Source of the DNA: Deltaproteobacteria bacterium
GTDB taxonomy: Bacteria; Bdellovibrionota; Bdellovibrionia; Bdellovibrionales; Bdellovibrionaceae
Length of the DNA stretch: 64,000 bases
Reading direction: 5' to 3'
NCBI GenBank assembly: GCA_017302835.1
Contig: JAFLCC010000005.1
Location: 62,001-126,000, forward strand
In this document: piece after piece, positions 3,082 through 53,933 of the stretch
How positions within the stretch are numbered: position 1 is the first letter of the stretch
How the letters are laid out: the number at the start of each line of letters is the position of its first letter
Made by a program: the position numbers and the translations under genes
The notes under the pieces: generated by a model
Told to the model about the DNA's origin: nothing
The model's database searches: none
What the model saw: the letters and a program-made list of their open reading frames with translations, nothing else

Positions 3082-4713
3082 CTATTTTAAACATGAATAT
3101 TGAACGCTGTATTTACCTGGTTCTAGCTCGGCATTAAACTTCAAGTTAACACCCTCCACGATAAAAGCAGGGTTTATCACCACTCCATTTTTTGAAATGG
3201 TGATAGGGTAGCCTTCTAGAGGTGCACATTGCAGAGTTAATGTCTTGAGTAAATTGCGGATACCCTCAGCAACTCCTCTGACTTGGTTAGCGTAGTCCAT
3301 TTCACAAACATTACCGATAATACCACCAGTTAAATTTGATAGGATAGAGTACCTTTCACCATAAGTGGCTCCATAAGTAGATCTGCAAGCCGTATCACCT
3401 GGTCGAGTGATTATTGAATGGAAGCTAAATCTCTTTTGACCTGACCATGAGGAGTGAATTAAGTTGAGTAAGGCTTGGGGGTCGTTTTTAGTGGTATTGT
3501 CAGATTCATCTTCATCTGAAATTAACACCACTGCCAGTTGAGAATCTGATCTCATAAAAGAACGCATGTTAGATTCGTTATTATTGTACCTCTCTACTGA
3601 ACGATAAACAGCCCTGATTCCTTGTTCTGATCCAGAGCCCGTTTCTGGGCGTTGCAAAGTTTGGCTCAGCTGAGTTTGAGCGGTGGCCACTTCTTGACTT
3701 GAATCAATTATGTACCGTCCATTTCCATTTTTTATGGGTATCAAACGGCCATCACCGAGATTGATATCTCGAGGATCCGTAGTGGTGACCGCTAATTGGT
3801 AATTTAGTCCAGTGAGAATAGATAGAAATTGTGAGGTTCTCTGAGCCATGCTTTGTTGTTCATATTGCATGGATCCTGAATTATCGATAACAAACAAAAT
3901 ATCTACTTTTTTATAATCATTGACATCAACTTCTTGCGTGAGAAGACGGGTGAGGGAGTTCACTTTCCAAGAGACAGAAGCTCTTGATAAATTATGAAGT
4001 TCATCTTCGGCTTCAACAGAGAAGAGGTAATTTCCTTGGGGTAGGGAAGGGATGGTGATCCCACTGAGTCCCGCGAAACACTCTTTTTGTATTTCGTTAA
4101 GCTTACATTTAACGGAGATGACTTTTGAGATTTTATCAGTAACATTTACTGAAATATCTACTTTTGTTCCTTCTTCGAGAGTAGCTTGGGGATATTTTTG
4201 AAACAAAATATCAGGGCCTTGATTATCAAAAATTATCGACTTCCGATAACAAGGAGAAAGGCCTCCTTCCCAGTCTTGAAATCTGACCGTCACCGAAGCC
4301 AAAGCAGCTAAGGAGCTCAGCTGAAAACTTTTTACCGGCGCATAGGTCTCCCAGATTCCATCAGAACAATCAACAGCGCTTCCTATTTTTACAGAGTAAG
4401 GACTCAAGGTTCTTAATTGCAATTGGACCAAAGGCGATGAGGTTGCAGGTTCATCATTGTTAATAGAAAAACCTTCTTCAATACTCAAATCGGGAGGAGT
4501 TTCAGGAGGAACAACGGGCAGAGTGCCATTATCACCTTGGTGAGGAGGGGGGACATTAGGATCTTGGGTTATTGTAAAGTCAGGTGTCGATGTTGGGTTG
4601 GATCCATCTTGAGTGCTGGTACTCGATACGGTGGATTCTGTCACTCCTGTTGTTTTAATAAAATCACAGGAAACCAAACTAAGAGAAGAGACGAGAAAAA
4701 TTAAAGTTTTCAT
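3082..4713 (-). CDS. Lipoprotein with von Willebrand factor A domain
   Basis: The 543-residue product starts with a lipoprotein signal peptide with lipobox LVSC (Cys16). The residue after Cys is Asp, which in enterobacteria favours retention in the inner membrane. A Thr/Ser/Pro-rich linker (about 20-80) is followed by Ig-like repeats (about 95-250), and then a VWA domain whose MIDAS loop DNSGSM (D277, S279, S281) is intact, followed by a VVLISDEDESDN strand. VWA domains with an intact MIDAS bind a partner through a divalent cation. The C-terminus has another small beta domain. The gene is monocistronic and divergent from the tolC-like gene at 4909. Whether it is an adhesin or an assembly factor cannot be read from the sequence. 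Confidence 0.82.
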   Translation of the reverse strand: MKTLIFLVSSLSLVSCDFIKTTGVTESTVSSTSTQDGSNPTSTPDFTITQDPNVPPPHQGDNGTLPVVPPETPPDLSIEEGFSINNDEPATSSPLVQLQLRTLSPYSVKIGSAVDCSDGIWETYAPVKSFQLSSLAALASVTVRFQDWEGGLSPCYRKSIIFDNQGPDILFQKYPQATLEEGTKVDISVNVTDKISKVISVKCKLNEIQKECFAGLSGITIPSLPQGNYLFSVEAEDELHNLSRASVSWKVNSLTRLLTQEVDVNDYKKVDILFVIDNSGSMQYEQQSMAQRTSQFLSILTGLNYQLAVTTTDPRDINLGDGRLIPIKNGNGRYIIDSSQEVATAQTQLSQTLQRPETGSGSEQGIRAVYRSVERYNNNESNMRSFMRSDSQLAVVLISDEDESDNTTKNDPQALLNLIHSSWSGQKRFSFHSIITRPGDTACRSTYGATYGERYSILSNLTGGIIGNVCEMDYANQVRGVAEGIRNLLKTLTLQCAPLEGYPITISKNGVVINPAFIVEGVNLKFNAELEPGKYSVQYSCLK

Positions 4714-7298: not shown

Positions 7299-9296
7299 AT
7301 GATTGAAATTAAAAATATCAAAAAATCCTACCAAATGGGAAAGCAAACTCTAGAAATTCTCAAAGGTGTGGATTTAAAAATAAATGATGGCGAATTTGTT
7401 GCCATCATGGGACCTTCAGGTTCTGGTAAATCAACTCTTATGAATATATTGGGCTTGCTGGATATCCCAAGTTCGGGATCCTACAACTTAAATGGCGTCG
7501 AAGTTTCCAAGATGTCGGAAGATGAATTGGCCCATTTAAGAAGACAAGAAATTGGTTTTATTTTTCAGCAATTTAATTTGTTGCCAAGAATCAGCGCTCT
7601 TGAAAATGTTGCCTTGCCTTTAAATTACTCCAAAAAATATATAGGTTTGGAAAGAGCAAAAGAGCTTCTTGAGTCGGTAGGTCTCACGACAAGAATGATG
7701 CATAAACCAAATGAGCTTTCGGGGGGGCAGCAACAAAGGGTGGCCATTTCGAGGTCTCTTGTAAATAGCCCGAGAATGATTCTTGCCGATGAGCCGACGG
7801 GAAATTTAGATTCTGTCAGCCAAAAAGAAATTTTAAAAATCCTAAAAGAATTAAATGCAAAGGGTATCACCATTGTGATTGTGACCCATGAGGAAGATAT
7901 AGCAAAGGAAGCAAGAAGGATTATTCGAATTAAAGATGGTCTCATCTATTCTGATGACATCAGAATGGATGAAATTAGTTCAGAAGTGATCAGCCTAAGT
8001 ACGACGCTTTTGAAGGAAAGAGCAAAGACAAAAGACCATGAAGATAAAAATAAAAAATGGAATTTAATTCATGGGCTGAAAGATTTTTTAAATTATTTTC
8101 AACAAGGATTCAAAACATTGATGGCCAATAAAATCAGAACTTTCTTGTCCATGTTGGGAATTCTAATTGGTGTGGGTGCTGTGGTGGCCATGCTGGCCCT
8201 AGGAAAAGGGGCACAGAAGGCCATTGAAGAGCAGCTCTCCTCGTTGGGGTCCAATCTTATTATGATTCGACCAGGAAATATTCGTGTTGGTGGAGTAACC
8301 CAAGAATCGGGAGCGGCCAATAGATTGATGTTTGAAGATCTAAGCCATATAGCTACGAAAATTGACAACATCAAGGGTGTTGTCGGCCAAGTGAGCGGTC
8401 GAGGACAACTGACGGCTTTATCAAAAAATTGGAACACAACAGTGCAAGGGGTTTCTTCAACTTGGTATCGTGTTCATAACTCCGAACCCAAGCAAGGTCG
8501 AATCTATTCGGAAGCAGAAGACACCGCACGGTCACGAGTGGCTTTAATCGGTGAGACGGTCAGAAGAGAATTATTTGGCGAACAAAACCCAATTGGAGAA
8601 ATGGTTAAAATAAATAAAGTTAATTTTCAGATTATTGGTCTCCTTCCTGAAAAAGGGGGGAATAGTTTTAGGGATCAGGATGATGTGGTAATGATTCCCT
8701 TACAAACCGGGATGAAGAGATTATTTGGAAAAATTAATTTAGATATGATTGAAGTGGAAATCAACAATCAAGAAAACATTGAACTCGCCATTGATCACAT
8801 CAATCAGTTATTGACAGATTTGCACAAAATACCTTTGTCCCAACAAAGTGATGCCTTTCAAATTCGTAATATGGCAGATATCCAGCAGGCAATGCAACAA
8901 AGCAGTCAAACCATGTCGATGCTTTTGGCAGCCATTGCGACCATTTCATTGCTTGTTGGGGGGATTGGAATTATGAATATCATGCTGGTCTCGGTCACAG
9001 AAAGAACCCGTGAGATTGGCTTGCGAAAAGCCATTGGGGCTCAAAGGGTCGATATTTTACTTCAGTTTTTATCAGAGTCTATCGTCGTAAGTGTTATTGG
9101 TGGACTCCTTGGTATTTTATTGGGTTGGAGTTTGACGACCTTACTTTCGAGTTTGCTGGGGTGGTCTACTTTTGTATCATGGCAGTCAGTTCTCCTCTCT
9201 TTTTTCTTTTCTGCCATGATTGGCATTATTTTCGGAGTTTATCCAGCCAGAAAAGCATCTTTGCTTCATCCCATTGAAGCCCTAAGGTATGAATAA
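7299..9296 (+). CDS. MacB-like ABC exporter (ATPase-permease fusion)
   Basis: This 665-residue protein has an N-terminal ABC ATPase with Walker A GPSGSGKS (38-45), signature LSGGQQQRV, and Walker B ILADEPTGNLDS. A linker, a first membrane segment (about residue 280), a large MacB-type periplasmic domain, and three C-terminal membrane segments of the FtsX type follow (SLLVGGIGIMNIMLVSVTER is the hallmark stretch). MacB dimers are mechanotransmitters that push substrates from the periplasm through a TolC duct, using a MacA adaptor. The gene order TolC-adaptor-MacB agrees. In other bacteria substrates include macrolides, toxins, siderophores and lipoproteins; none is indicated here. The next gene starts on the base after its stop codon. 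Confidence 0.92.
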   Translation: MIEIKNIKKSYQMGKQTLEILKGVDLKINDGEFVAIMGPSGSGKSTLMNILGLLDIPSSGSYNLNGVEVSKMSEDELAHLRRQEIGFIFQQFNLLPRISALENVALPLNYSKKYIGLERAKELLESVGLTTRMMHKPNELSGGQQQRVAISRSLVNSPRMILADEPTGNLDSVSQKEILKILKELNAKGITIVIVTHEEDIAKEARRIIRIKDGLIYSDDIRMDEISSEVISLSTTLLKERAKTKDHEDKNKKWNLIHGLKDFLNYFQQGFKTLMANKIRTFLSMLGILIGVGAVVAMLALGKGAQKAIEEQLSSLGSNLIMIRPGNIRVGGVTQESGAANRLMFEDLSHIATKIDNIKGVVGQVSGRGQLTALSKNWNTTVQGVSSTWYRVHNSEPKQGRIYSEAEDTARSRVALIGETVRRELFGEQNPIGEMVKINKVNFQIIGLLPEKGGNSFRDQDDVVMIPLQTGMKRLFGKINLDMIEVEINNQENIELAIDHINQLLTDLHKIPLSQQSDAFQIRNMADIQQAMQQSSQTMSMLLAAIATISLLVGGIGIMNIMLVSVTERTREIGLRKAIGAQRVDILLQFLSESIVVSVIGGLLGILLGWSLTTLLSSLLGWSTFVSWQSVLLSFFFSAMIGIIFGVYPARKASLLHPIEALRYE

Positions 9297-10178
9297 ATGT
9301 ACGAGGTTTTAACATATTCCTTGCTTGCAAATTTGACTTTTTCCTTTGGGAGTTTTTATTTTACAGTTTATTCAAAAAAAATAAGTGTCTTATGGATGAA
9401 TGCATTTAAGGCTTCTGTTTCTTTTTTGTTCATCACCTTGTTGTTAATTTTAAATCAACATGTTTTTACAGCCAGTTTAGTTGAAAAGACCTATCTACTG
9501 GTAAGTGGTTTTGTCGGTCTTTGTATCGGAGATTTATTTTTATTAGAGGGGATGAAAACTCTTGGGAGCTCTCGAGTGATCATGATGTTTGGCTTGTCGC
9601 CATTTTTTACGGGAATTGGGTCCTATTTTTTATTTAATTCTGTTCTTCCATTAAAAATTATCTTTGGCGTGTGTTTTATGGTTTTGTGTTTTTATTTGCT
9701 ATCCTTAGAAAGGTACAAAGCCTCTGGGCATTGGCATTTAAAGGGAATTTTGATGGGCTTAACAGGGGTTCTTTTGGATGATATGGGACAGCTTCTTACC
9801 AAAGAGTCTTTTAATGAAAATCTTAAATTGAACTCTTTGGAGGCTAATTTTTTTAGAGCTTGTGGAGCCATTTCTGGTTTTATTATCATTCATTTCGTCT
9901 ATCGAAAGATAAATTTAAAAAAAGAATTTTTTAAAATGAAATCTAAAGATAAGAGTCTTGTTGTTTTAGCCAGTTTTTTTGGGGCTTTTTTATCTCTTTA
10001 TTTTTATCTTAAATCCGTTAGTTTGGGACATCTGAGTGTCGTTTCCTCAATGGCAGGAACGGGTCCTCTTTTCGCAGAAATATTTGAAAGTGTCAGGACC
10101 AAAAAAGCGCCCCACCCTTTATGGTGGGCGGCTTTTATGTGTTTTCTCTTTGCCCTGTACCTATTTGCTATGACCTAG
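9297..10178 (+). CDS. EamA/DMT-superfamily permease
   Basis: The 293-residue protein is almost entirely hydrophobic with about ten predicted membrane segments in two five-helix halves, the arrangement of drug/metabolite transporter (DMT) proteins. A short hydrophilic loop (about residues 138-150) separates the halves. The ATG directly follows the TAA stop of the macB-like gene with no gap, so it is very likely translated from the same mRNA. DMT members export or exchange metabolites such as amino acids and nucleotide sugars; nothing identifies the substrate. A second, unrelated DMT gene is at 24369. Confidence 0.8.
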   Translation: MYEVLTYSLLANLTFSFGSFYFTVYSKKISVLWMNAFKASVSFLFITLLLILNQHVFTASLVEKTYLLVSGFVGLCIGDLFLLEGMKTLGSSRVIMMFGLSPFFTGIGSYFLFNSVLPLKIIFGVCFMVLCFYLLSLERYKASGHWHLKGILMGLTGVLLDDMGQLLTKESFNENLKLNSLEANFFRACGAISGFIIIHFVYRKINLKKEFFKMKSKDKSLVVLASFFGAFLSLYFYLKSVSLGHLSVVSSMAGTGPLFAEIFESVRTKKAPHPLWWAAFMCFLFALYLFAMT

Positions 10179-34708: not shown

Positions 34709-34916
34709 TCACTTTCCTTAAAAGTTAAATCTAAACATATCCCAGTTGTTTATCAAATTAAAACAGTCTCAAAGTAGTACAATTCATTACTTGTAAGTTT
34801 AAACTGAGTGATGACTAAAAAAACTTCTAAATTTTATTAAATTTCTCATAAAAGCTCTAAAGTCGGTTTTACAAATGCCCGACTAGACTTTGATCGCATT
34901 AATATTTGGAGGTTTT

Positions 34917-36815
34917 GTGGCTATAAATAAACATAGGACGTTGATTGAAAGTCGTATTTATAGAATTCTCTTCGTGGTATCCTTTTTCACGGTAGGGGTG
35001 CTGGGGCAGTACAAGGGGCAAGCAAAAGTCGTTCCTGGCGAGTATATTATCAAATATAAAATGGATCTTTCTAGATCCAATGCTATTGGGAAAATTCAAG
35101 GAAAAGTGACTCTTAAGACAGCTTTTCCAGAAATGAATATGCTCCATATGGCCGTTAAACATGGCCAAGAGAGTGCTGTTCAAGATATTAAGAATGACCC
35201 AGATGTACTTTTTATCGAACCTAATTATATTTTAGAAAAGTTAGATAATGATAATGAATCCCAGTCGAGCGTGGGGCAAGTCGTTGAGCAACTTTCATTA
35301 GATCAAGTATATGCTCAATCCTCTTCGGCTTTTACACAAAATTATTCAAACGTACGTGTGGATCAAGCTTGGCAATTAAGCAGTGCCTATGCCTCAAATA
35401 ATCGTCCTATCGTGGCCATTCTGGATACAGGTTTGGATAAGGATCATGTTGTTTTTAAAAACTCAGGGGCTTTATGGGTCAACCTAAAAGAAATTCCTGG
35501 GAATGGTATTGATGATGATCAAAATGGATATATCGATGATATAAACGGTTGGAATTTTATTTCCAATGCCGCTTCTTTTGCAGATGATGAAGGTCATGGC
35601 ACCCATGTCGGTGGGATCATTGTCGGAGCCACTTTGGATATTTTTTCACAAAACATAGATCAAGCAAAAATTCAAATTATGCCATTGAAGTTTCTGGATG
35701 CTCAAGGGTCAGGTTCGACAGCCAATGCCATTAAGGCCATCTATTATGCGGTTAATAATGGAGCTAAAATTATTAATAATTCTTGGGGAGGCCCAGGCTA
35801 TTCGAGTGCTCTTTTGGAAGCCTTAACCTACGCATACAATCACCAGATTTTAATTGTTTCTGCAGCAGGGAATTCTTCAAAAAATAACGACAGTAATGAA
35901 ATATATCCAGCAAATTATGGAGTTCCAAGCAACGTAAGCATTGCGGCGACTAGTGATACGGACAAGCTAGCTTCCTTTTCAAATTATGGAATACAAAAAG
36001 TTCATCTTGCTAGCCCTGGGATTTATATTTATTCAACCTTGCCTGGAAATTTATTTGGTTCCATGTCCGGGACATCTATGGCCGCACCCTTCGTTTCAGG
36101 AATTGCGGCCCTGGCCCTCAGAGAAGCCCCAGCTTTGTCAGGTTATCAATTAAAATCTCTTTTAGTTTCTTCAGGTTATTCAATTGGAAATTTAGCATCA
36201 AAAATTCAGTCGGGTTCGCGAATTGATGCCTATAGTTTAGTATCACAAGTCAAAACGAACCCTGGTATCACTTCCAATCAACCAGAATACAAACCGAGCT
36301 ACTCAGAAGAGAGAAGCGTCGCTTCGGAAGCAGCTCCCGATTCTTCTCCTAAATCTGGTGGAGGCTGTGGAACGGTGGCAAGCTCTCTATTAGGTAAGGG
36401 TGGTGGTGCTCCATTTGATGCCAACAGCGCTCTTGCGGTGTTATTTTTATTTATGGTTCCTTTGGCCGTTTATACTTACTTGAAAGCTAAAACCAAAACA
36501 CCAACGTATGTACGACAACATGATCGTTTCATCATGAACTCTGATATCACCGTGAAGATGGGAGATCGTGAACTGGTCGCACAAATGAAAACTATTTCTA
36601 TGGGCGGATTAAGTTTCAATATCGATGAGATGCTTGAAAAAGGCGGATCAGTAAGTATGAAAATTAAAGGTCCTGACAATCAAGAAATTGAGGTGGAAGG
36701 GCGAGTCGTTTGGTCAGAAGCTAATCATGCTTACGGAGTCAAGTTCGAAGAAGAAAAAGGAATGTTCACTGATGCCTTTATGGGATGGAAGAATAAATTA
36801 GTGAAAACAGATTAA
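34917..36815 (+). CDS. Subtilisin-like protease with C-terminal PilZ domain
   Basis: I start it at GTG 34917, which has a GGAGG box 4 bases upstream; an in-frame TTG at 34890 lacks one. The 632-residue protein has a signal peptide, an I9-type propeptide (PGEYIIKYKMDL onward), then an S8 catalytic domain with Asp170 (VAILDTGLD), His227 (EGHGTHVGG) and Ser387 (GTSMAAPF). After a Ser/Pro-rich linker comes GGGCGT, a Gly-rich spacer, a membrane helix (about 504-522) and a PilZ-like domain (about 530-632). PilZ normally binds cyclic di-GMP through RxxxR and (D/N)xSxxG: here R533-R537 are present and the second motif reads TxSxxG. Predicted topology is periplasmic protease, one membrane pass, cytoplasmic PilZ. 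A terminator follows. Confidence 0.9.
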   Translation: MAINKHRTLIESRIYRILFVVSFFTVGVLGQYKGQAKVVPGEYIIKYKMDLSRSNAIGKIQGKVTLKTAFPEMNMLHMAVKHGQESAVQDIKNDPDVLFIEPNYILEKLDNDNESQSSVGQVVEQLSLDQVYAQSSSAFTQNYSNVRVDQAWQLSSAYASNNRPIVAILDTGLDKDHVVFKNSGALWVNLKEIPGNGIDDDQNGYIDDINGWNFISNAASFADDEGHGTHVGGIIVGATLDIFSQNIDQAKIQIMPLKFLDAQGSGSTANAIKAIYYAVNNGAKIINNSWGGPGYSSALLEALTYAYNHQILIVSAAGNSSKNNDSNEIYPANYGVPSNVSIAATSDTDKLASFSNYGIQKVHLASPGIYIYSTLPGNLFGSMSGTSMAAPFVSGIAALALREAPALSGYQLKSLLVSSGYSIGNLASKIQSGSRIDAYSLVSQVKTNPGITSNQPEYKPSYSEERSVASEAAPDSSPKSGGGCGTVASSLLGKGGGAPFDANSALAVLFLFMVPLAVYTYLKAKTKTPTYVRQHDRFIMNSDITVKMGDRELVAQMKTISMGGLSFNIDEMLEKGGSVSMKIKGPDNQEIEVEGRVVWSEANHAYGVKFEEEKGMFTDAFMGWKNKLVKTD

Positions 36816-42456: not shown

Positions 42457-43830
42457 TCAGGGTTTCCATTGCTTAACTTTTTTATAACCGTCTTCTATAG
42501 TGATAAATTGACTATTCCTTAATTTAAATAATTGATTTGGCAGATTCACGTTGATTGTTTCCATTATTTCATATTGACCAACAGTTGAATTGAATCTCAA
42601 AATTCTATAACCGTTATTAAAAGCGACGACTAATCGGCCGTCATCCAGCTCTCCTACGTCGACAATCGCTTCAAGTTTGCCCTCTTTATCTTTGAAATCC
42701 AAATTTCTTTCAGTGAATTCCATTTGTTGAGGGGCCCAAGTTCTAACTATCAATTGATAATGGGAAAAAGTCATGATGGATCCATTTTGTAGGTGCCTGA
42801 CTTCTCTTATATAGTCTATATTTTTATCGAATCGCTTTTTAGGGAAATATCCTTGAGTACTTTGATTGTAAGCCCAATATTGAATGTATGAACCAGGGAA
42901 AAATCCTTTGCTGAAGTTAGAAAGGTAATGAAATGTAAGTAAATCACCATTTGGAAGTTCAACAACACCGTTGATTTGATCGGGGCCAAGTTTGGTAAAA
43001 GAAGCAGTTTGATAAGGTGAACTGAAAATACCTTGGTGATTAACACCTTCTGAATAAATTAAAAAACGACCATGACTAAGAACGACGACGATTCTTCCAC
43101 TTTTTAGTACTTTTAAACCAACTATAGAATCTCCAAGAGAACTCTGTCGATAAGGGTCTAAAAAAATATTAGATTTTCTAGCTTTTTTGACGTCATAGTT
43201 GCCAGGTTCAAAAAAAATTAGATCTTGGACACGGGGAAATGCCTCGTAAACAGCGACAGCTCCACCGGTTATCAAAGGTTGAAAAAATGTGATTTTTCAG
43301 TGGTCATTAAGTTCAACATCTATTAGTTTTTTGTAAATTTGTGATTCTGCATCTGGTTTTAGAACGGTGAAATAATTTTGACTAGTTTCGGCGAGAACGG
43401 TTCCATCCATCAACGTTGTCATTCGATTTGGAAGTTCTTTAAAATGATGAGAGAGATCCTTACTTTCAAATTTACCTGCTGAATTAAGGTTTTGTTTGAC
43501 GTTAGCTTGTTCTACTTCCAAAGGTTTGAGAATCTGTAGTGATCTTTCTTGTTCAAATATATTCAGCCTCTCTTTAAGAACTTTAATGAAATTAGGATTA
43601 TCACGAAGGGCTTTTCCAATAAGAATTTGAAAATTTGGTTCTTGAATCACCTCAAACGAGTTTTTGTTTTGTTTCAATGCCAATGCGACAATTTTTGACG
43701 TAATGCCTTGAACAGCAGTTTCATGGTTGAATGATTTTTGCTGATAATGGAGTCCACATTGTTGTGCCATCGTTCCATCAATTATTAAAACGATAAAAAA
43801 TAAGATCATAACTGCCCACTTAGTTTCCAT
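42457..43830 (-). pseudogene. Third propeller paralogue, interrupted by one in-frame TGA
   Basis: Two open frames (43297-43830, 177 residues; 42457-43275, 272 residues) are in the same frame and separated only by TGA at 43297-43299 and a few codons. Read through, the product is 457 residues, against 456 for the neighbouring paralogue at 43820, and the two align across the stop with no gap: the TGA falls on a Gly of the paralogue, so a single GGA-to-TGA change explains it. The intact part has a signal peptide, CGLHY just after it, the helical N-terminal domain and later DGR-type propeller blades (LDDGRLVVAFNNGYRILRF). The second frame has no ribosome site. It starts 11 bases inside the upstream gene. 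Either a fresh pseudogene or a readthrough case. Confidence 0.75.
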
Positions 43831-45190
43831 TTTGGACCTCTAATTCTTTTTTAATTAATTTAGCACTCCACAGATAGGCGAGACTGGCGTTACCCTGAAA
43901 AGTAGCTTCAGTAGTAATAAAATCTCCAGTGGGAAGTACCAATAGATTAGTTGATATATCAGTGTGTTTTTGGTCACTTTGAATCACTTTAAAATTACCA
44001 CTGCTATCTTCTTCTAAAATATGAATTTTTCCATTGTTTGAATTTGCAACCAATCTCCCGTCTGGTAATTTTCTGACTTTGAAAACAAAACCACCTTCTA
44101 CTAAAGGGATGGAGGCGTTAGATTTGTATTGTGAAGGCGCTAAAGGATCTTTGCCCGGTGACCAGACTCTAACACTGCCATCATAAGAAGATGAAGCCAA
44201 CCTTCCATCACTTAAAAGAGATAAGGAGGTCACTCCTTTCGTGTGTCCTAAAGAGGTTCCTGTTAAACGGGGATTTAGAACGTTTGAAAGGTTCAATGAA
44301 ACAATTTTTCCTGAGTAAAGTGCAAAGGCGATATCCCCGTTAACTAATTCCACAGCATCTGCAATGCTGGTATCTTCAAGAAATATCTCACCTGATAAAT
44401 GGCCCTTGGTTCCATTTGGTCCAGGTGTGTAAATGCAAAATTTCCCTTTTGTTTTGATGACAATAATTCTTCCATTTGAAAGTGGTAATAATTGAAGAAC
44501 CATTTCTCGTCCAGGGATATCAATACCGATGGGGGCTTTTGCATCGCTTCCAGGATAAAGGATCCATAAGGTATAAGACCCTTTGTTAGATTCATACATA
44601 GTGGCGCTACCATCAGGTAAGGAAGCATAACCATCTCGAACCTCGCCAATTCGTTTTTGGAACGAACTATTTATTTTTATTTTACCTGTGGAAGGATCTT
44701 GAAAGGCAACATAGTCCGTTAACCCATTCATATTAAAAATAATGGTTCCATCTGAAAGAGAGTTCATTTTAAAAATATCTTCCCCTAGCAATTGATGTAA
44801 ATCTTGAACGGTTTCATAGGGTCCCGGAATAGTAATGGATTTTTTTACTTTCGGAATGATGACAAGAGTAGAAGTTTTTTCCTTAATTTTTTCTTTAAGC
44901 TTTTTTAAAAAATTAGGTATACTGGCACTATGTTTTTTCAAAGCTAACAGAACCGATTCTTGTTGGATCACATCGGTTATATCTATACTTCTTTCTTTAG
45001 CTGCTTTCATCAATCGTTCTACCAGTGAATCGATGATCTCTTCTTCATTTTGTTTTTCAGATGAATCTTTTGAAACAAGCATATAAGATGATAAACAAGT
45101 ATTTGCAGCCGCAATTGTAGACTGAAAAAGTAAAGATAATAGACTCATATTAATTAGTATTTTTAATTTTGATGTTACAAATATTTTCAT
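43820..45190 (-). CDS. Exported beta-propeller-like protein, paralogue 2
   Basis: The 456-residue protein has a signal peptide (cleavage about residue 29), Cys32-x3-Tyr36, a helical domain (about 48-105; IIDSLVERLMKAAKERSIDI), and then about seven repeats of a blade with the core L(S/P)DGR followed by strands and Gly (LSDGRIIVIKTKGKFCIY, LSDGRLASSSYDGSVRVW, LPDGRLVANSNNGKIHIL). One blade is a clear WD40-like sequence. Propellers of this type usually bind proteins. Its ATG overlaps the stop codon of paralogue 1 as ATGA. Exported to the periplasm or beyond by inference. No known family name. Confidence 0.82.
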   Translation of the reverse strand: MKIFVTSKLKILINMSLLSLLFQSTIAAANTCLSSYMLVSKDSSEKQNEEEIIDSLVERLMKAAKERSIDITDVIQQESVLLALKKHSASIPNFLKKLKEKIKEKTSTLVIIPKVKKSITIPGPYETVQDLHQLLGEDIFKMNSLSDGTIIFNMNGLTDYVAFQDPSTGKIKINSSFQKRIGEVRDGYASLPDGSATMYESNKGSYTLWILYPGSDAKAPIGIDIPGREMVLQLLPLSNGRIIVIKTKGKFCIYTPGPNGTKGHLSGEIFLEDTSIADAVELVNGDIAFALYSGKIVSLNLSNVLNPRLTGTSLGHTKGVTSLSLLSDGRLASSSYDGSVRVWSPGKDPLAPSQYKSNASIPLVEGGFVFKVRKLPDGRLVANSNNGKIHILEEDSSGNFKVIQSDQKHTDISTNLLVLPTGDFITTEATFQGNASLAYLWSAKLIKKELEVQNGN

Positions 45191-46710
45191 GGTTGCTGTC
45201 CTATCTTTAAATTGTTAGGTCTCCATAAATCGAGAGAAGCGTCTTGATTGCTATATACAGAACCTAAATTAGTAATATAAAAGCCTTTTTCTTGAATCAA
45301 AATATGAGTGAAACTCGGATATGAATTATTAAATTCGGTTACTCTAAATAAATCAGTTCCCTCTTTTTCTAAAATTGCAAATCCGAAATTAGTGCGTGCA
45401 ACTAAACGTCCATCAGAAAGGTGTCTCACTTCTAAAACATAGCAGGGACTTTTACAAATATCTACGTGATAGCTTGGAAACCGAGAGTTATTGGAGAGAG
45501 TCCAAAATTGGACCTGCTCTGCACTAGATGTAACAAATTGGCCATCCTTTAATAAATCAATCGAGGTTAAGTGGTTTTTTTTTGAATTTAAATAACCAAT
45601 GAAAGTTGGTTTATTTTTTTTTCTAAAATCCATTAACTTTATCAATCCATTAATCAATGTAAAGGCGACTAAGCCTTTCGAATATTCTATTCCATGTGTA
45701 ATTGCAGTATCTTCTAATCCACCTGAAAGCGGATCTATAATTCGATCAAAAACGTCGATATTGTCTGAAAATTTGCCTTCGGTACCAAAAAGTCCTGGGT
45801 TGTAAATATTCAATTTGTAATTAGTTTTAATCACAATAATTCGACCATCAGATAGGGGCAATAATTTCTTTGCAAAACCATTTTTGGGTATGGGAATCCT
45901 CATGGGTTTTTTACTTTTTCCTGGTTTCATGATCCAGAGAAAATCAGGACCGCCATCAGAATAATTTTTTGTAATTCTGGTTTCGCCATGTTCATACATG
46001 GCTATACTTCCATTTGGTAACGAAACGTAGCCTTGAAGCCTGGGTTTATCAAAACCCTTAAAAATTTTATCTTTTATTACTAAGTTGCCAGTTGTGGGTT
46101 CTTGTTTTGCTACTAAGTCTTCAATTGAATCCGGAATTTCAAATACAATGGATCCATTAGATAGCTTGTAAACATTCTGAATTTTTTCATCTGATAACTC
46201 TGGTAAAATGCGTTGTCGTTCGATTGAAAAAGTTCTTATTTTTATATCATTTTTCAATAAAGTGTTTTGGTCATTCTGATTTCGCTCTTTAAGAACCTTT
46301 TCCTCAATCTGTTGTTGTTCTTCTTGTTCTTTTTCAACAGATTCTTCTGTTACCTTTTTTTCTGAAGACTCTTCATTTATTTTATGCTGGTTTAGTGCCA
46401 TTTTTATTTTTTTTATAAAGGAGGGAATTCCAGCACTTTCTCTTTGTAGCGCAAATAAAACGGAGTTTTTTTCGATCATATCGAAAACGTCAATATTATT
46501 ATTTTTTGAAGCCTTCAGCAATCGAGCTACAACAGAATGAATAATTACATCTTCCTTCTGGCTAAAAGCAGGAAGCGAAAAAGTGGAATTGTAAGAAGAC
46601 CTACAATTATTCGTTGCCCAAATCTGAGAGTGAATAAAAAGACAAAATGAAATTAGCTTGATTAATGATGAAATTTTTAATTTAAAAGAGGTTTTAATTT
46701 TTAAAATCAT
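45187..46710 (-). CDS. Exported beta-propeller-like protein, paralogue 1
   Basis: I start this gene at ATG 46710, which overlaps the TGA of the transglutaminase-VWA gene (ATGA) and has an AAGGAA box; the frame runs further upstream but that is antisense to nothing and only overlaps the preceding gene. The 507-residue product has a long signal peptide, Cys36-x3-Tyr40, a helical domain matching paralogue 2 (VVARLLKASKNNNIDVFDMI), a charged Glu/Lys/Gln linker (about 115-155) absent from the others, and DGR-type blades (LSDGRIIVIKTNYKLNIY, LSDGRLVARTNFGFAILE). Sequence identity to paralogue 2 is obvious throughout. Role unknown; likely partner of the operon's VWA protein. Confidence 0.82.
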   Translation of the reverse strand: MILKIKTSFKLKISSLIKLISFCLFIHSQIWATNNCRSSYNSTFSLPAFSQKEDVIIHSVVARLLKASKNNNIDVFDMIEKNSVLFALQRESAGIPSFIKKIKMALNQHKINEESSEKKVTEESVEKEQEEQQQIEEKVLKERNQNDQNTLLKNDIKIRTFSIERQRILPELSDEKIQNVYKLSNGSIVFEIPDSIEDLVAKQEPTTGNLVIKDKIFKGFDKPRLQGYVSLPNGSIAMYEHGETRITKNYSDGGPDFLWIMKPGKSKKPMRIPIPKNGFAKKLLPLSDGRIIVIKTNYKLNIYNPGLFGTEGKFSDNIDVFDRIIDPLSGGLEDTAITHGIEYSKGLVAFTLINGLIKLMDFRKKNKPTFIGYLNSKKNHLTSIDLLKDGQFVTSSAEQVQFWTLSNNSRFPSYHVDICKSPCYVLEVRHLSDGRLVARTNFGFAILEKEGTDLFRVTEFNNSYPSFTHILIQEKGFYITNLGSVYSNQDASLDLWRPNNLKIGQQP

Positions 46711-49700
46711 GGTGAAGTTCCTTTTTCTGCTAACTGCTGTAATTGAAGCAGTAAATCGGCTTCCAATTGCGAAAGGGAATCCAGTCTTGATCCTGTCCAT
46801 CGTGAATAGTTGGTTAAAACGTCAGCTAATGTTTTGATTACCACTTCAGATGGCGCCTTGCTTTTTCTTATACTAGATAGGAGCAAATCTAAGTCTCTAA
46901 CAAGGCCAGAATTTTTTGGTGGAGTATTCGTGCTACGATTTTGCAACTCTTCATTTGCCAATCTGATGGATTCAAAAGGTTTGTCAGTGCTAAATAAAGG
47001 TACTTTTATATTAGAAATCATTTGGCTTAATTTCCCACTAAGATTTTGATTGCTAGGATCAAAAACAAAAGCATCCGGTGATTCCTGAAGTTGATCTGTA
47101 TTGTTGATAAATTCGTTCATCATTTCCCTGGTCAAAACAGTTACCATGGCTTGGGAGTTTTTTGTATTCGTATACTGAGCAATTTCTTCCAGTTGGTGGT
47201 TTCTCTCTCCGATGGCCACCAGATTAAACATGGTTTGAACACCAGGAGGTAGATCAGCTATTTTTTTTAAAGTGCCAGGCCTATCTATGGCGGCGCCACC
47301 GTCGGTTAACAAGATCATATTTGCTTTTTTTAATTTAAGTCGATGAATCAAATCATTTCCGCGGTTTTTATGATCTATATTATCATAAATCATTTGGAAG
47401 TGTTTATCAAAACAGGCTTGAATATTTGTATCTTCTTTGGCATCGGTAGGTGAGTTTAAAAACTGAAGAATCGCACTCCTAGCTTCTTCTGCAGACTTAA
47501 TGTGGATTCCTGGATAAACTGAATTCCCAAATGGAAACAAGACGACTTCGTGAATAGGGTTTCCCATGGGATCGCGTTCAGAAATTGCCTTGTCCACGAT
47601 GGCGGCAATGGCACTGGCTTGGACAATAGCTGGTGAACCCTTCATCGAACCACTGACATCAAAAAATATATTTGTGTGTTTCCTTTCAATTGAATTTTGT
47701 GATCCTGTAGCAGGGTAAGTGGCTTTATAACCCTTCATAAATTGTTGATCCTTGAGTAAGTTTCCTAGAACCATCATGACTGGATCTGGATGATATTGAA
47801 AATCTAAATTCCATCGATCGAATTGGGCGATATCTTCGGGACGAGCGAGCACGATATCTTCGTTATCCCTTTCTCGTTTGACAGTTCGAATCATTGATTT
47901 AATTTTTCGAACTTTAAATTCCTTTTCTGTATTTAAAAGGAAATTGAAATGCCTGCCCACCATGGAGGTTCGTACCAGATGAGATAGAGATCCATTTTTC
48001 AGAGCCGTATAGAGACTGTTTTGATCCATGGATCCTATTTTCAAGGCTTCAGGGTATTGATCCAACACGATCTTACGAATCGTATTTCCTGGAAGTTCAC
48101 GTATAATTCTTTCAACAAGCTCCTGTTTTGGTGATGAAGGATGGCGGTAAGAATCAAACTGATATTTGATTTCCAACAAAGAATTTAAAAATTCTTTTTC
48201 TTCGAAACTTAAATCGCGATATTTGGCAATTGACTCGACAATAGATTTCACATTTTGCAAATTTCGATAGGACAAAGTAGGATTTGTAAAAAACTGTGTT
48301 TTCGCTTCGTTCACTAATTCTACAAGAGTTTTATCTTCTTTGCCATAAAAGTGGCTCGCAATGAGATTCGCTTCTGATTTAACTTGAAGGTTATATCCTT
48401 GCATTTCAGGAAAATTTAAAAGCAGCGATTCTAAGGTTAACGGCAACTCTCCGATTTTTGTATGATGAACACTGCTCTCTAGGGCATACAAAATAGCTTG
48501 CCGAGGGTAGGTCCCCAGCAAACTATCAAAAGACTTGGGAAGGCGATTGATTTGAACTGGAGTCCTAGGCATGTAAATATCTAATGGAATTTGACTTTTA
48601 GGTGTTTGAACTTCATGATCTTCTGAATTGTTAGCAGGTCGGGATTCATTATTTTGATTCTCTTTTAGTTTCTTTTCTTCAGATGCAGGGGGTTCATTTT
48701 CAGAAGTGTTTCCAATGTTTTTTTCAACAGGGTTTCCGTCATTCCCTGGCTTGTCCTTATTTGGAGTAAAATCAAAGGGAACCCATTCCTCATTGACAAA
48801 GATTTCAACCCAAGTGTGTTCAGGTACATCTGCATTAGCCAATTGATATATTTCCTGAGCGATCTCTTTGGAATCAGCAATGTTTCTACCACCAGCAACA
48901 CGGGTTGGGATTTGAAAGAAGTCTCTTAAAAGAATGGCGCCGATTAAAGCGGCTCCGTCACAGTTAAAGGTTTTCCCTTTTGCTAAGGTTAAGGCTTTGG
49001 GGTCGTTCTTAGAAAAAAGATCAGCGAAAAAGTTTTTTTTAGATTTAACGTTTGAATCATTATAATAGGAATAGGGTCCATCTGTTTGAAACCATTCAGA
49101 TAGGCGTTTGGAAATCAACATTGGGTCGCCTTTACCTTGTGCGCGCGCAGAATTGATACCATCCATCACGTGATCAGGCCAAGATCTAGGATTAATTCCG
49201 CTGATCTTGGAGTTTTCTTTGATTTGCTCTGGAGACATTATAATTTTAGGTCCAGGTTCTAGCCAAAAAGTCACTTTTTCTGGTAATGGTTTTTCATTGA
49301 TGCTTTTAACTTGATATTCCCCTGGAATTGTTGAGACAACAGCATAATCTCTATATTCTGTTAAAACAGGTCTAAATCCATAGGGAGTTGGAATCATTAA
49401 TTCAGAAGCTTTTTGATAGTTTATGATAAAGTATTTTTCGTTTGCTTTTGTCGGAGAAAAATTTTGAATCGGTAATTGTTCCAGCGGACGAGCCTTGGGA
49501 TTTTGTTGAAGCGGATCGCTTAAATCTTCATAGGAAAAGGTTCTAAGCAACTTGGAACTAGGCCGAGCGGTTGTGCCATACCAATAGAGATCTCTTTTGT
49601 TTTTCACAGCTTCATTGAGGTCCTTATTCTTAACTTCAAATTCTTCTTGACGTTTTTCGTTCAAACGAGGCAATGGTTTTGGCTGAGCATTTGATTTATC

Positions 49701-50189
49701 GATTTTAGTATCTTTGTTTTCTTCAGCTTGCTTTTCCAAAGGAGAAGCTTTTGCTTCCTTCGTCGTACCTCCTTCTCCTTCGATTTCTGTAGTTCTTGTG
49801 GATGAATTTCCATCCTTGTTCTCATTGTCTGTTGTTTGGGTAGATCCACCACCTCCACCGCCTAGGCCAATTCCTTTGATTTTCTTTTTTCCTTTGAAGA
49901 AATTAATAATTTTTTCGATAACTTCAATGGTCTTTTTCGTCACTATTTTTCCAAGGTCTTTTGCTTTTTTGAGGAATTCATTTTCAACAATGGGTGGTCT
50001 CTCTTTGTTTTTTGAGGTGCTACCAATTGAAGGAGAGTCAAAAACTCTGGAAGCAAAAGAATCATTTTGGGAACTAGAACTAGTTGATTGAGTTTTGCGA
50101 TAAACCAAAGAGCAGGATTTATTATCACTAGCAAATGAAATTAAGCTAACTGAAAGGATCATTGCGAACGGTAAAATGAATAGCTTCAT
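46707..50189 (-). CDS. Exported transglutaminase-like/VWA protein
   Basis: The 1160-residue protein has a signal peptide (1-20) and Cys26-x3-Tyr30. A basic amphipathic region (70-105), a Gly6 run and a charged low-complexity linker (to 170) follow. A transglutaminase-like core has all three triad residues: Cys410 (FNCDGAAL), His458 (PEHTWVEIF) and Asp473 (PFDFTP). After another linker and a helical domain comes a VWA domain with an intact MIDAS (FFDVSGSMKG; D844, S846, S848) and LLTDGGAA. Transglutaminase folds make or cut isopeptide bonds or act as peptidases; VWA domains often pair with MoxR-type ATPases, and the divergent gene encodes two such ATPase domains. It leads the propeller operon. 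Confidence 0.88.
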   Translation of the reverse strand: MKLFILPFAMILSVSLISFASDNKSCSLVYRKTQSTSSSSQNDSFASRVFDSPSIGSTSKNKERPPIVENEFLKKAKDLGKIVTKKTIEVIEKIINFFKGKKKIKGIGLGGGGGGSTQTTDNENKDGNSSTRTTEIEGEGGTTKEAKASPLEKQAEENKDTKIDKSNAQPKPLPRLNEKRQEEFEVKNKDLNEAVKNKRDLYWYGTTARPSSKLLRTFSYEDLSDPLQQNPKARPLEQLPIQNFSPTKANEKYFIINYQKASELMIPTPYGFRPVLTEYRDYAVVSTIPGEYQVKSINEKPLPEKVTFWLEPGPKIIMSPEQIKENSKISGINPRSWPDHVMDGINSARAQGKGDPMLISKRLSEWFQTDGPYSYYNDSNVKSKKNFFADLFSKNDPKALTLAKGKTFNCDGAALIGAILLRDFFQIPTRVAGGRNIADSKEIAQEIYQLANADVPEHTWVEIFVNEEWVPFDFTPNKDKPGNDGNPVEKNIGNTSENEPPASEEKKLKENQNNESRPANNSEDHEVQTPKSQIPLDIYMPRTPVQINRLPKSFDSLLGTYPRQAILYALESSVHHTKIGELPLTLESLLLNFPEMQGYNLQVKSEANLIASHFYGKEDKTLVELVNEAKTQFFTNPTLSYRNLQNVKSIVESIAKYRDLSFEEKEFLNSLLEIKYQFDSYRHPSSPKQELVERIIRELPGNTIRKIVLDQYPEALKIGSMDQNSLYTALKNGSLSHLVRTSMVGRHFNFLLNTEKEFKVRKIKSMIRTVKRERDNEDIVLARPEDIAQFDRWNLDFQYHPDPVMMVLGNLLKDQQFMKGYKATYPATGSQNSIERKHTNIFFDVSGSMKGSPAIVQASAIAAIVDKAISERDPMGNPIHEVVLFPFGNSVYPGIHIKSAEEARSAILQFLNSPTDAKEDTNIQACFDKHFQMIYDNIDHKNRGNDLIHRLKLKKANMILLTDGGAAIDRPGTLKKIADLPPGVQTMFNLVAIGERNHQLEEIAQYTNTKNSQAMVTVLTREMMNEFINNTDQLQESPDAFVFDPSNQNLSGKLSQMISNIKVPLFSTDKPFESIRLANEELQNRSTNTPPKNSGLVRDLDLLLSSIRKSKAPSEVVIKTLADVLTNYSRWTGSRLDSLSQLEADLLLQLQQLAEKGTSP

Positions 50190-50540
50190 ATTTTTTCCTT
50201 TTCATTTTTCTAATTCATGGGCGTCATTTTTATAAGGCGCCACTTTTATAAGAAAATTAATCATAAAAAAAATTTAAAATTAATGAGTCCTTTTAATTTA
50301 TAAATTTCAATTCTCTTTGAATCTTTGTAAATTATAAATGAAGCGATTCAAAGAGTGAATTTTTCAGGTATAAAAGTGTTCCAAATTTTGGAGCAGGATA
50401 AGTGTCTGATATCGTATACAAAATGTGGGGCAGGCTATTGTCTACATTGAGCGGTTTAAACATCACTATGGTAAAATAGTGTTAGCTTCATTATTATTTA
50501 GTTCATTAAATAAAAAGTATCATTTACATAGTGAGGTAAA
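50190..50540. other. Divergent promoter region
   Basis: This 351-bp gap separates the minus-strand operon from the ATPase gene and has no gene. It holds the operator palindrome at 50380, two TTTTATAAG-like boxes near 50230-50255, a TATACAAAAT stretch just downstream of the palindrome on the plus strand, and an inverted repeat CACTAT/ATAGTG near 50464-50481. Both transcription units probably start here. Confidence 0.6.
50380..50392. promoter_or_regulatory. Candidate operator palindrome (B)
   Basis: TCCAAA-T-TTTGGA is identical to the copy at 42325, with 22 bases identical including flanks. It lies between the two divergent units, about 190 bases from the minus-strand start and 148 from the plus-strand start, so one regulator could control both. 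Confidence 0.55.
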
Positions 50541-53500
50541 ATGAAGTCATTAAACATTAATTCCTTTTGGAAACAAACTTCTATTTCTATATTGATTTTA
50601 ACTGGACTACTTTCTGTTGCCAGTGCAAATCCTAATTACCTGTGTGGACGATATTATCGAAAGGTAATCAAATCGAGAGTGGTTAGAGGTGATGGTTTTG
50701 AAAATATTCACCCAACTAAAGTGAATGCGGCTTGGGAAATATCTCGAGTGGGTCTAGCTGAACTGGCTAGTGAAATCTATGGCTCTGAAAGTTTTCTTTA
50801 TTATTTGGGTACTGGAATTTTGGCAAAAGAAAATGTTCTTGCTGATGGCCCTGGTGGTGGGGCAAAGACATTTAGTGTGACTAAAGTTTTAGAAGCACAA
50901 CTGAATGCGGTTAGAGGCGTTGATGAAGAAGCATTGAAAAGTTTGCATAAAGATATCGTCTTTTTTATAGAAGAAATTAAAAAAATTGCTGATGAAGAAA
51001 AAACGGAAATAAAAGACCCCTCGAAAAGATTGTTTACCTTACAATTCCACCAACTCCTTAATGAGTCCGCTATTCTCGGTGGACCAAACCCCCTTAAATT
51101 TGTAAAAGAAGGGGTTTATGAAATCGACTATAGCCAGGCTTTAATCGCAGAAAAAAATATTTTTGCAATACTCGACGAAGTGGAAAAAGCACCTGTCAAT
51201 ATTCAGATGACAATTTTATCGATACTCAACGAGCGTCAAGCCTTGCCAGGAAATAAAGTCATTGAAACGGCACTTGAATCTATTTCGGCAACAACCAATG
51301 CGACATCGGGACAGTTGGTATCCCAAGGATCTCCTGAACAGATCGGTGGCAGAATGGCTTTTTACGATCGATTCGCTCTTAAATTCCACGTCGTCAACGT
51401 CGATGCCTCTGAAAAAGATGGTTTTCTTTTTATCGAAAAAGTAAACCCAGAAAAAGGCGGAAAGAGATTCACCATTCTCGATCTTCGTGTTTTGCGAAAC
51501 TTACTGCCAAAAATTACTATTCCTAAAGAGCTTTTAGATTCAGCGGCGGAGGTTTCGGCACAGTTGGATTTAATCTACTCGGAATACTATAAAACAGCGA
51601 AAGAAGAAGCTGAACGTGAAAGAAAAACACCTCGGTTTTATCCACCCTTCTCTGGATCGATTCGAACTAATTCAAAAGTGATTCCTCTGTGGCAATCTGC
51701 CTTTTTAATGCGTCAATTATTGATGGGGGTTCCATTTGAATCGGTACGATTGAAAATGGAAGCTAAAGATCTAGTCGATTTATCCCCCGCCTTGTTGCAG
51801 GGAGGTCCTGACCAAATTGTAAGTCAACTGGGACAACGTATTCCTTTTTTACAATTTAAAGAAGTCGATGATTTTAATGATAGCGGCGACAATTCAGAAT
51901 TTGCTTCTGAAAATAGACTTGTTTTTGCAATGTCCAATTACAATTCAAAAGATCATTCTAAAAATAATTCGCCATCAAGAGGAAGTGCAAAAAGAAAAAC
52001 AAATGTTTTTGAAGAGAATTCCATATCAATTGGATTATATGATCCATCAACACAAATATTTTCGTACAAGTCTTTGAACAGCCAACGAATACAACGTTTG
52101 TATTTCGATAGTAAAAATAAAAAACTTATTATAGCTAATATGGAAGTGGCGAAGGAATTGGGCCAAGGCTTAGATTTAGATCAAGTCATCTTTAAGGGAA
52201 GTGAACGTAAGGCTCGACGCTTTGAAAACATCAATGAAAGACTGGCCCGAGTACAAAAAAAATACGATGAAGCCACTGTAAAACCAGTTAACACGGAATA
52301 CAAACTTTATGGAAGCTTAGCCGAATACATAGATAATCCAAAAAGCCTTTTACGAACAGATTCAAAAAAACAACTTGCAGAAATCAAGAATTTCCATGAT
52401 AGGTTTCTTGATATTATCAACACTAAGATGCGAGACTTATCTCAGGTTAAACTTAATATCTTGGATCCTTCAGCCTATATTCAAAAGGACTTAGAGTTTA
52501 AAAATCAAGCCGCTAAACTTGAAGGCGAATTGGTGAAGGCATTGGCCGAACAGAATGTTGATAAATTACTTGAGGCCTCTGCAAAAAGTATCCGTCAAAC
52601 AATGGAGGAGGCTGCATTCCGATTTAGAAATTCGGCGCCAACAGTAGCTGCTATTATTAAAGTAATGAATGCTCGTCGCAATCTGATGTTGTTTGGTCCA
52701 CCGGGTTCGGCAAAAACAATGCTTTCACGTATGATTTTAGAAAAAGAATTAGAATGGATCACGGAGGCACAAGCGGCGCAATTAAATCAGCTCATCGTTC
52801 AGATTCTTCCAAATGCCTCAAAGCAAAAAGGAAATCTGTGGATCAAGCAATTTCATCCAATGACGACAGAAGGAGACATTCTTGGCCGATTGGATTTAAA
52901 AGCTATCGAACAAGGTCAAGGTTATAAATATAACTTAACGGGCACCCTTTCGGCTAAAGATGTTTTTTTTGCCTTACTTGACGAATTTGAAAAAGCTCCT
53001 CCGGGCGTGAGAACCGCTCTGTTGTCTATTTTAAATGAGCGTAAGATTTTTAATGGGAGTGATCCAACGATTTCAAATATAATTGCTATCATCATCACAA
53101 CAAATTCCACTCCTTCCGAGTTTATTACGGGTCAAGGTGATTTTCATGAAGCCTTTCCAATTTATGATCGCATTCAATGGAAAGCCTATTCTTTTAATAA
53201 ATTCTCTGTCAGTGATTTGAAGGAATTTTATTATCGAATGTACCTACGACAAAAACCGCAAATTTTAAGTCCACTTTTTATGTCTCCTATATCCACATTG
53301 AGTAAAAACGTGGTCACTACGCCACGTGACCGTGAACTTCTTAATAAAATTTACTATGAGTTCATGAGCCAAGCAGTGGCCCGTTCAGACAGCGAGCATC
53401 AAATTCATTTGAGCAATAAAGAAGAAGTTCCAACTTTCTTTATTCAATCACGTGGTGAAAGTAGACGTTCAAAGATGTCAACAATTTATAATGAATTAGC

Positions 53501-53933
53501 TCCTACGATACAAATGAACCGTGTTATGAAAGGAGAAAGTGTAACAAGACTAAAAGAAAAATATCGTTTCGAACTGAAGGACTTGGAATCATATGCAGAA
53601 CTTTTTCTGACTCACAATGATGCTTATTCTGTTAAAGCGGAATATGATGCTGATGGTTTGCTGATTTTTAAAGTGATCGCAAGGGATCATTCAGGACTTC
53701 AAGGACATATTCCCGATCGTGAAAAAGACACCATGGATGGATTTAAATGGGAAGCGGATTTAATTGCTTCTGTTATCAATTTGAATCTGCAAGCGATGCT
53801 TCGTACAAGTGTTGAGACCATCAAAGAGAATCCATTGATGTACCAATCTGTTTTTGAAAACTCAACGGCTCGAAAACAATGGCTATATAGAAATGGAGTA
53901 TCTGAAGCAGATCTGGAAAAACCTCTTTTTTGA
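50541..53933 (+). CDS. Exported protein with two MoxR/RavA-like AAA+ domains
   Basis: The 1130-residue protein opens with a Sec signal peptide (basic start, hydrophobic 14-27, cleavage after ASA29) and Cys35-x3-Tyr39. AAA+ domain 1 (about 60-330) has Walker A GPGGGAKT (103-110, with Gly for the usual second Pro) and Walker B AILDEVEKAP (D212, E213). A middle region (about 380-680) is mostly helical. AAA+ domain 2 (about 690-930) has Walker A GPPGSAKT (719-726) and Walker B LLDEFEKAP (D814, E815). Both carry LLSILNER after Walker B, a mark of the MoxR/RavA group. Such ATPases are cytoplasmic and work with VWA proteins; export would separate them from the ATP pool. It is divergent from the VWA gene. 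No sign of frame damage. Confidence 0.88.
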   Translation: MKSLNINSFWKQTSISILILTGLLSVASANPNYLCGRYYRKVIKSRVVRGDGFENIHPTKVNAAWEISRVGLAELASEIYGSESFLYYLGTGILAKENVLADGPGGGAKTFSVTKVLEAQLNAVRGVDEEALKSLHKDIVFFIEEIKKIADEEKTEIKDPSKRLFTLQFHQLLNESAILGGPNPLKFVKEGVYEIDYSQALIAEKNIFAILDEVEKAPVNIQMTILSILNERQALPGNKVIETALESISATTNATSGQLVSQGSPEQIGGRMAFYDRFALKFHVVNVDASEKDGFLFIEKVNPEKGGKRFTILDLRVLRNLLPKITIPKELLDSAAEVSAQLDLIYSEYYKTAKEEAERERKTPRFYPPFSGSIRTNSKVIPLWQSAFLMRQLLMGVPFESVRLKMEAKDLVDLSPALLQGGPDQIVSQLGQRIPFLQFKEVDDFNDSGDNSEFASENRLVFAMSNYNSKDHSKNNSPSRGSAKRKTNVFEENSISIGLYDPSTQIFSYKSLNSQRIQRLYFDSKNKKLIIANMEVAKELGQGLDLDQVIFKGSERKARRFENINERLARVQKKYDEATVKPVNTEYKLYGSLAEYIDNPKSLLRTDSKKQLAEIKNFHDRFLDIINTKMRDLSQVKLNILDPSAYIQKDLEFKNQAAKLEGELVKALAEQNVDKLLEASAKSIRQTMEEAAFRFRNSAPTVAAIIKVMNARRNLMLFGPPGSAKTMLSRMILEKELEWITEAQAAQLNQLIVQILPNASKQKGNLWIKQFHPMTTEGDILGRLDLKAIEQGQGYKYNLTGTLSAKDVFFALLDEFEKAPPGVRTALLSILNERKIFNGSDPTISNIIAIIITTNSTPSEFITGQGDFHEAFPIYDRIQWKAYSFNKFSVSDLKEFYYRMYLRQKPQILSPLFMSPISTLSKNVVTTPRDRELLNKIYYEFMSQAVARSDSEHQIHLSNKEEVPTFFIQSRGESRRSKMSTIYNELAPTIQMNRVMKGESVTRLKEKYRFELKDLESYAELFLTHNDAYSVKAEYDADGLLIFKVIARDHSGLQGHIPDREKDTMDGFKWEADLIASVINLNLQAMLRTSVETIKENPLMYQSVFENSTARKQWLYRNGVSEADLEKPLF

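Follow-up and report, generated by a model that had tools for sequence, protein, structure and literature searches.

The window analysed here, a stretch of 64,000 nucleotides from a member of Bdellovibrionaceae, encodes a twin ATPase with an N-terminal signal peptide, which raises the question of how an enzyme equipped for ATP hydrolysis could work outside the cytoplasm, where there is no obvious ATP supply. This puzzle had been pointed out in the original prediction and was judged to be a real one. Analysis of the locus and its relatives makes it very probable, at the level of sequence, that the ATPase belongs to a Sec-exported MoxR–vWA–propeller system. Most likely, this is an exported variant of the beta-propeller ternary conflict systems that is used against other cells. 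The features are listed in Table 1.

Table 1. Features of the locus of the predicted exported MoxR and of two tagged proteins encoded elsewhere in the same genome
Feature	Position	Strand	Remarks
Predicted exported twin bpMoxR-type AAA+ ATPase, 1130 aa	50541..53933	+	PF20030 E=5.6e-18; AAA_5 9.6e-18
Shine-Dalgarno-like GTGAGG	50531..50536	+	4 nt 5' of the ATG
Predicted signal peptide of the ATPase, residues 1-29	50541..50627	+	Ends ASA; heuristic; found in relatives too
Post-signal tag CGRYY of the ATPase (C35-Y39)	50643..50657	+	C35 is the sole cysteine of the protein
Domain 1 Walker A GPGGGAKT	50847..50870	+	Residues 103-110
Domain 1 Walker B AILDE	51165..51179	+	DE = 212-213
Domain 2 Walker A GPPGSAKT	52695..52718	+	Residues 719-726
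Domain 2 Walker B ALLDE	52971..52985	+	DE = 814-815
Predicted exported transglutaminase + vWA (MIDAS) partner, 1160 aa	46707..50189	-	Signal peptide; tag CSLVY; Transglut_core + VWA in homologues
Tag of the partner, C26-Y30	50100..50114	-	
Transglutaminase core	48762..48962	-	Cys410, His458, Asp473
vWA domain, MIDAS intact	47130..47681	-	D844, S846, S848, T921, D963
Predicted exported propeller protein 1, 507 aa from start 46710	45187..46710	-	Tag CRSSY; 33% identity to propeller 2
Predicted exported WD40/propeller protein 2, 456 aa	43820..45190	-	Tag CLSSY; WD40 2.4e-8
Third propeller-type gene	42457..43830	-	Tag CGLHY; one in-frame stop following residue 177, no further stop in either half
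DUF2252 kinase-fold protein, tagged (L113)	G000:C3:44726-45940	-	Related members L191-L201
Tagged predicted exported protein, otherwise cysteine-free (L105)	G000:C2:86674-87453	-	Weak EndoU nuclease match, E=0.005

The ATPase scored 65.2 bits against a cut-off of 27 with the Pfam family PF20030 (bpMoxR), to which its first domain was assigned. The name bpMoxR stands for the MoxR of MoxR–vWA–beta-propeller ternary systems described by Kaur et al. 2020 (PMC7159879). PF20030 alone fails to separate the exported family from ordinary MoxR proteins. Alignment bore out the presence of two AAA+ domains, both with Walker A and with the Asp-Glu pair of Walker B. The sensor-1 asparagine is residue 253 in domain 1 and 855 in domain 2, and the arginine finger is residue 277 and 877, respectively; the set of residues predicted to support AAA+ activity (Walker A and B, sensor 1, arginine finger) is thereby full. 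In an alignment of 14 relatives with identity down to 15%, the Walker, sensor-1 and arginine-finger residues of domain 1 were invariant (14/14), the sole variation being glycine for the alanine before the lysine in two sequences. The same residues of domain 2 were kept in 9/9 twins, with one Asp-to-Ser replacement (D876S, in L026) just before the arginine finger. Because these residues are conserved across the relatives, ATP hydrolysis appears to be under selection in the exported MoxRs, and ATP would therefore have to be present at their site of work. The P-loop of domain 1 had been described as changed; GPGG instead of GPPG is indeed unusual, but the alanine before the lysine is the ordinary MoxR form, found in both domains and in P-loops such as GVPGLAKT and GLPGLAKT, and therefore does not indicate a defect of domain 1. 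Modeling with AlphaFold from two-sequence alignments gave pLDDT values of 33 and 36, and no usable model was obtained.

Signal peptides were called using a home-made heuristic, not SignalP. In the ATPase, it recognized a three-part N-terminus, MKSLNINSFWKQTSISILILTGLLSVASA, with positive residues, a hydrophobic core and an A-x-A motif, followed after the predicted cleavage site by NPNYLC, in agreement with the Sec-type signal ending in ASA that had been claimed. N-terminal signal peptides were also predicted in a paralogue with 51% identity and in MoxR relatives down to 15% identity, and therefore that of the ATPase is not a chance feature. In the same search, the heuristic found signal peptides in 21/26 MoxRs of the exported type versus 0/19 ordinary MoxRs, and in the five MoxRs that it missed the N-termini resemble signals by eye. 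The vWA partners and propellers were likewise predicted to have signal peptides. Twin-arginine export of the ATPase was considered and not supported, as there is no RR ahead of the hydrophobic core. The ATPase contains exactly one cysteine, C35. Beyond position 60, tagged MoxRs had 5 cysteines among 18405 residues and ordinary MoxRs 17 among 6310 (p=5e-7), and the mean cysteine content of cytoplasm-like ORFs of this genome is 0.96%. Export of MoxR, as predicted, is supported by conservation, exported partners, the near-absence of cysteine and a common tag described below.

The divergent operon on the minus strand (50189-42457) encodes a protein with transglutaminase and vWA (MIDAS) domains and then three propeller-type proteins. 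A Pfam search with the partner of the window gave no domain match, and its domains were assigned via alignment with homologues and the kept catalytic residues; Pfam confirmation refers to the homologues of the partner and to one propeller of the window. The Cys-His-Asp residues of the transglutaminase were kept in 14/14 partners having the domain, and MIDAS was kept in 17/17 aligned partners, with one T921D change. Pfam matched no propeller in the vWA partner, and the propellers are separate genes. Two other proteins of the window were examined by eye: a vWA protein (3082-4713, minus strand) that looks like a lipoprotein, has the MIDAS motif DNSGSM and recalls Bdellovibrio MIDAS adhesins, and a subtilase-like protein (34890-36815, plus strand), whose C-terminal end seemingly consists of a membrane helix and a PilZ-like domain.

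A whole second system was found elsewhere in the same genome, with a MoxR 51% identical and a partner 41% identical to those of the window. Of the propellers, one pair was compared across the copies and could barely be aligned, in keeping with a role as the recognition part of a conflict system. We read homologous loci from a further 22 genomes, including a Bdellovibrionaceae metagenome assembly (L036) detected by scanning contigs with one protein; for the genomes of the other relatives, we infer a placement in Bdellovibrionota. In most of the loci read, a MoxR with one or two ATPase domains adjoins a vWA protein, often with several propellers, and the N-termini are signal-like. Across 291 genomes of the phylum, the partner profile revealed about 20-25 convincing loci, which are distributed patchily over many families. 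The genus g6 (perhaps Bdellovibrio) mostly lacks the system, which is therefore not core predation machinery. A search for plasmid matches gave none. L036 also encodes a predicted exported propeller protein (8161-9657, plus strand) with eight strongly matching WD40 repeats, which suggests repeat homogenisation. In genome G277, three signal-bearing MoxRs (L076, L077 and L078) have no tag and contain 5-6 cysteines each, and at least one of them appears to carry WD40-like repeats as a fusion to its C-terminal part.

The components of these systems share a short motif, C-x3-[FYL], soon after the predicted cleavage site. It was found in 67/75 components, namely in 21/26 MoxRs and 20/22 vWA proteins, which were collected by homology and adjacency, and in 26/27 propeller-type proteins. 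The latter were selected from the neighbourhood by visual inspection during which their N-termini could be seen, and their count is thus not blind. In a sample of the genome of the window (about 1.2 Mb out of 3.6 Mb), the tag was present in 10/10 components of the two systems versus 19/264 other predicted exported proteins (p=4e-11). The residue at +4 is specific to the genome: tyrosine in all ten components here, phenylalanine in G019 and G135, and leucine in G139. A lipoprotein reading of the tag was rejected, as there is no lipobox and the cysteine of the ATPase is at +6 and not at +1; in relatives, its distance from the cleavage site varies and the preceding residue is mostly K, Q, S or R. 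A literature search for such a tag returned nothing relevant, and the shared post-signal tag is apparently new.

The tag also occurs outside the systems. The tagged proteins concerned show no mutual similarity, and most are cysteine-free save for the tag. A predicted exported family with a DUF2252 kinase fold has a tagged member in the genome of the window; in seven other members that were read, the tag holds the sole cysteine beyond the signal region. Many members of this family are tagged, including some from genomes that lack the MoxR system. A further tagged protein weakly resembles EndoU nucleases (Table 1) and one matches CHAD (E=2e-4), while an acetyltransferase identity of some tagged proteins was unsupported by Pfam or NCBIfam. 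In 400 kb of G010, a genome without the system, the count for the motif was 0/18.

These characteristics suggest either that the inside of another cell is the site of work or that the machine uses ATP set free by another cell. In the proposed mechanism, the proteins would cross the inner membrane unfolded via Sec, and the lone N-terminal cysteine together with the aromatic residue or leucine at +4 would be read by a common lineage-specific partner, which could gather or route them. The fast-diverging propellers would recognize a target outside the producer, the vWA MIDAS would grip a client peptide, ATP would drive the remodelling of this peptide by MoxR, and its cleavage or cross-linking would fall to the transglutaminase-like domain. 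The machine would most likely operate in prey or a competitor, either in the cytoplasm or in the cell once opened. We favour a target cell, given that it contains ATP, that B. bacteriovorus is known to export proteins with Sec signals (PMC12622784), and that proteins of this species were found in killed prey (PMC11003981). Among the options named in the original prediction, secretion into another cell fits best, and an N-in membrane anchor would likewise leave the ATPase outside. We consider the chain as a whole, from export and tag routing to target recognition and client remodelling on ATP in prey or a competitor, to have close to an even chance of being correct; for delivery into the target cell as such, the chance is somewhat below even.

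The main rival explanation is that the machine works at the surface of its producer on released ATP. It would be exported and stay in the periplasm or on the surface, with a role, for example, in defence of the envelope or in surface maturation, drawing ATP from lysed neighbours or acting as a nucleotide-loaded assembly that rarely turns over. We regard this as a tentative but serious possibility. All the export evidence fits it, and no delivery apparatus and no route across the outer or the target membrane were identified. TgpA-type transglutaminases are periplasmic, and ORFs of ~600-700 aa with a transglutaminase domain match the profile of the partner. In addition, the third component of related systems was placed near the membrane by Kaur et al. 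(PMC7159879). However, the hydrolysis residues would then be conserved with no steady source of ATP, and the tagged kinase-fold family and the EndoU-like protein would be without substrates there.

The tag itself could carry no signal and simply result from cysteine use and the amphipathic character of mature N-termini, which we consider improbable. The motif is short, it is missing in some components, and selection by eye of the propeller-type proteins would favour it. However, among other predicted exported proteins of the genome, tyrosine was enriched at +4 alone (15/84, compared with about 2/84 at the remaining offsets, p=3e-9; the 15 include a few false signal calls, e.g., a carbamoyl-phosphate-synthase-like ORF). 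Moreover, the residue at +4 agreed in 112/124 same-genome pairs (43 expected by chance) and in 78/85 same-genome pairs of non-homologous components (30 expected), the chance values being from shuffles that do not include phylogeny, and the tag cysteine is often the sole one.

A cytoplasmic MoxR like RavA, with an N-terminal segment that fails to mediate export because the signal is inefficient or a downstream start is used, is very unlikely. ATP is available in the cytoplasm, related MoxRs are cytoplasmic, and the mature N-terminus of the ATPase is strongly positive, with a net charge of +5 in 18 residues (the same in the paralogue, from -4 to +5 in relatives); strong positive charge in this region is unfavourable for Sec. 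The case in which the real start lies downstream of the hydrophobic segment had been named as one that would overturn the prediction, but the ATG at 50541 has a good ribosome site and an in-frame stop 9 nt upstream, whereas no well-placed start was found between it and the first Walker A (for the GTG at codon 47, AAGG is too distant on the upstream side). The signal peptides of distant relatives, the exported partners and the cysteine loss also argue against cytoplasmic MoxR. Equally slight is the chance that bound nucleotide has a purely structural role in the exported ATPase and is never hydrolyzed: this would suit a periplasm without an ATP supply, but a scaffold would tolerate loss of the Walker B glutamate, sensor-1 asparagine and arginine finger, which are kept in all aligned domains of both kinds, and the scaffold role proposed originally is disfavoured for this reason.

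In the literature searched, no exported or periplasmic bacterial machine of the AAA+ or MoxR type was found. If the one described here is real, it would mean ATP-driven remodelling outside bacterial cells or delivery of a chaperone machine into others. A broader proposal, which we put forward as speculative and on balance unlikely, is that a Bdellovibrionota export or assembly route defined by the lone post-signal cysteine tag, with its lineage-specific +4 residue, carries nucleotide-using enzymes into target bacteria. These would include a full MoxR–vWA–transglutaminase–propeller machine running on the ATP of the victim; in that case, it would be the first AAA+ chaperone machine of bacteria to be exported. 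The tag offers a simple handle for listing the tagged exported set and for seeking the partner that reads it.

A comparison with the ternary conflict systems (PMC7159879) indicated that a bpMoxR ATPase, a MIDAS vWA and propellers in one locus are common to both, as are a patchy distribution and fast-diverging recognition parts. Only the window system has all components exported (as predicted), a twin ATPase, a transglutaminase fused to vWA and the cysteine tag. In the ternary systems, the propeller is a C-terminal fusion to vWA, whereas here propellers have their own genes; the P-loop is frequently, not universally, GxxxTAKS there and GxxGxAKT (GPGGGAKT, GPPGSAKT) in the window. The third ternary component consists of a variable N-terminal region, TPR and a propeller; in the window, a divergent propeller was found and TPR was not seen. 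Signal peptides are not mentioned in the main text of Kaur et al. 2020 (PMC7159879).

The closest solved structure by sequence is RavA (E=2e-27), and the pairing of MoxR with vWA is shared with RavA–ViaA of E. coli. However, RavA is cytoplasmic and has one ATPase domain, no signal, no tag and no propellers, and the ATPase of the window did not reach the NCBIfam equivalog cut-off for RavA (29 bits versus 681). The operons of MoxR, DUF58 and transglutaminase (TgpA-type) have MoxR, vWA-like and transglutaminase functions together, as the window does. Their transglutaminase is a membrane protein, and, unlike the MoxR of the window, their MoxR has no signal peptide (0/19). The Bdellovibrio MIDAS adhesin Bd0875 (PMC11003981) is also an exported MIDAS vWA protein and matters in predation, but, in contrast to the partner described here, it has a lipobox and no transglutaminase, and a MoxR or other ATPase partner is not mentioned there. 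Thus, the location, architecture and tag of the system differ from those of the known systems, while the machine is recognisably of the MoxR–vWA–propeller type.
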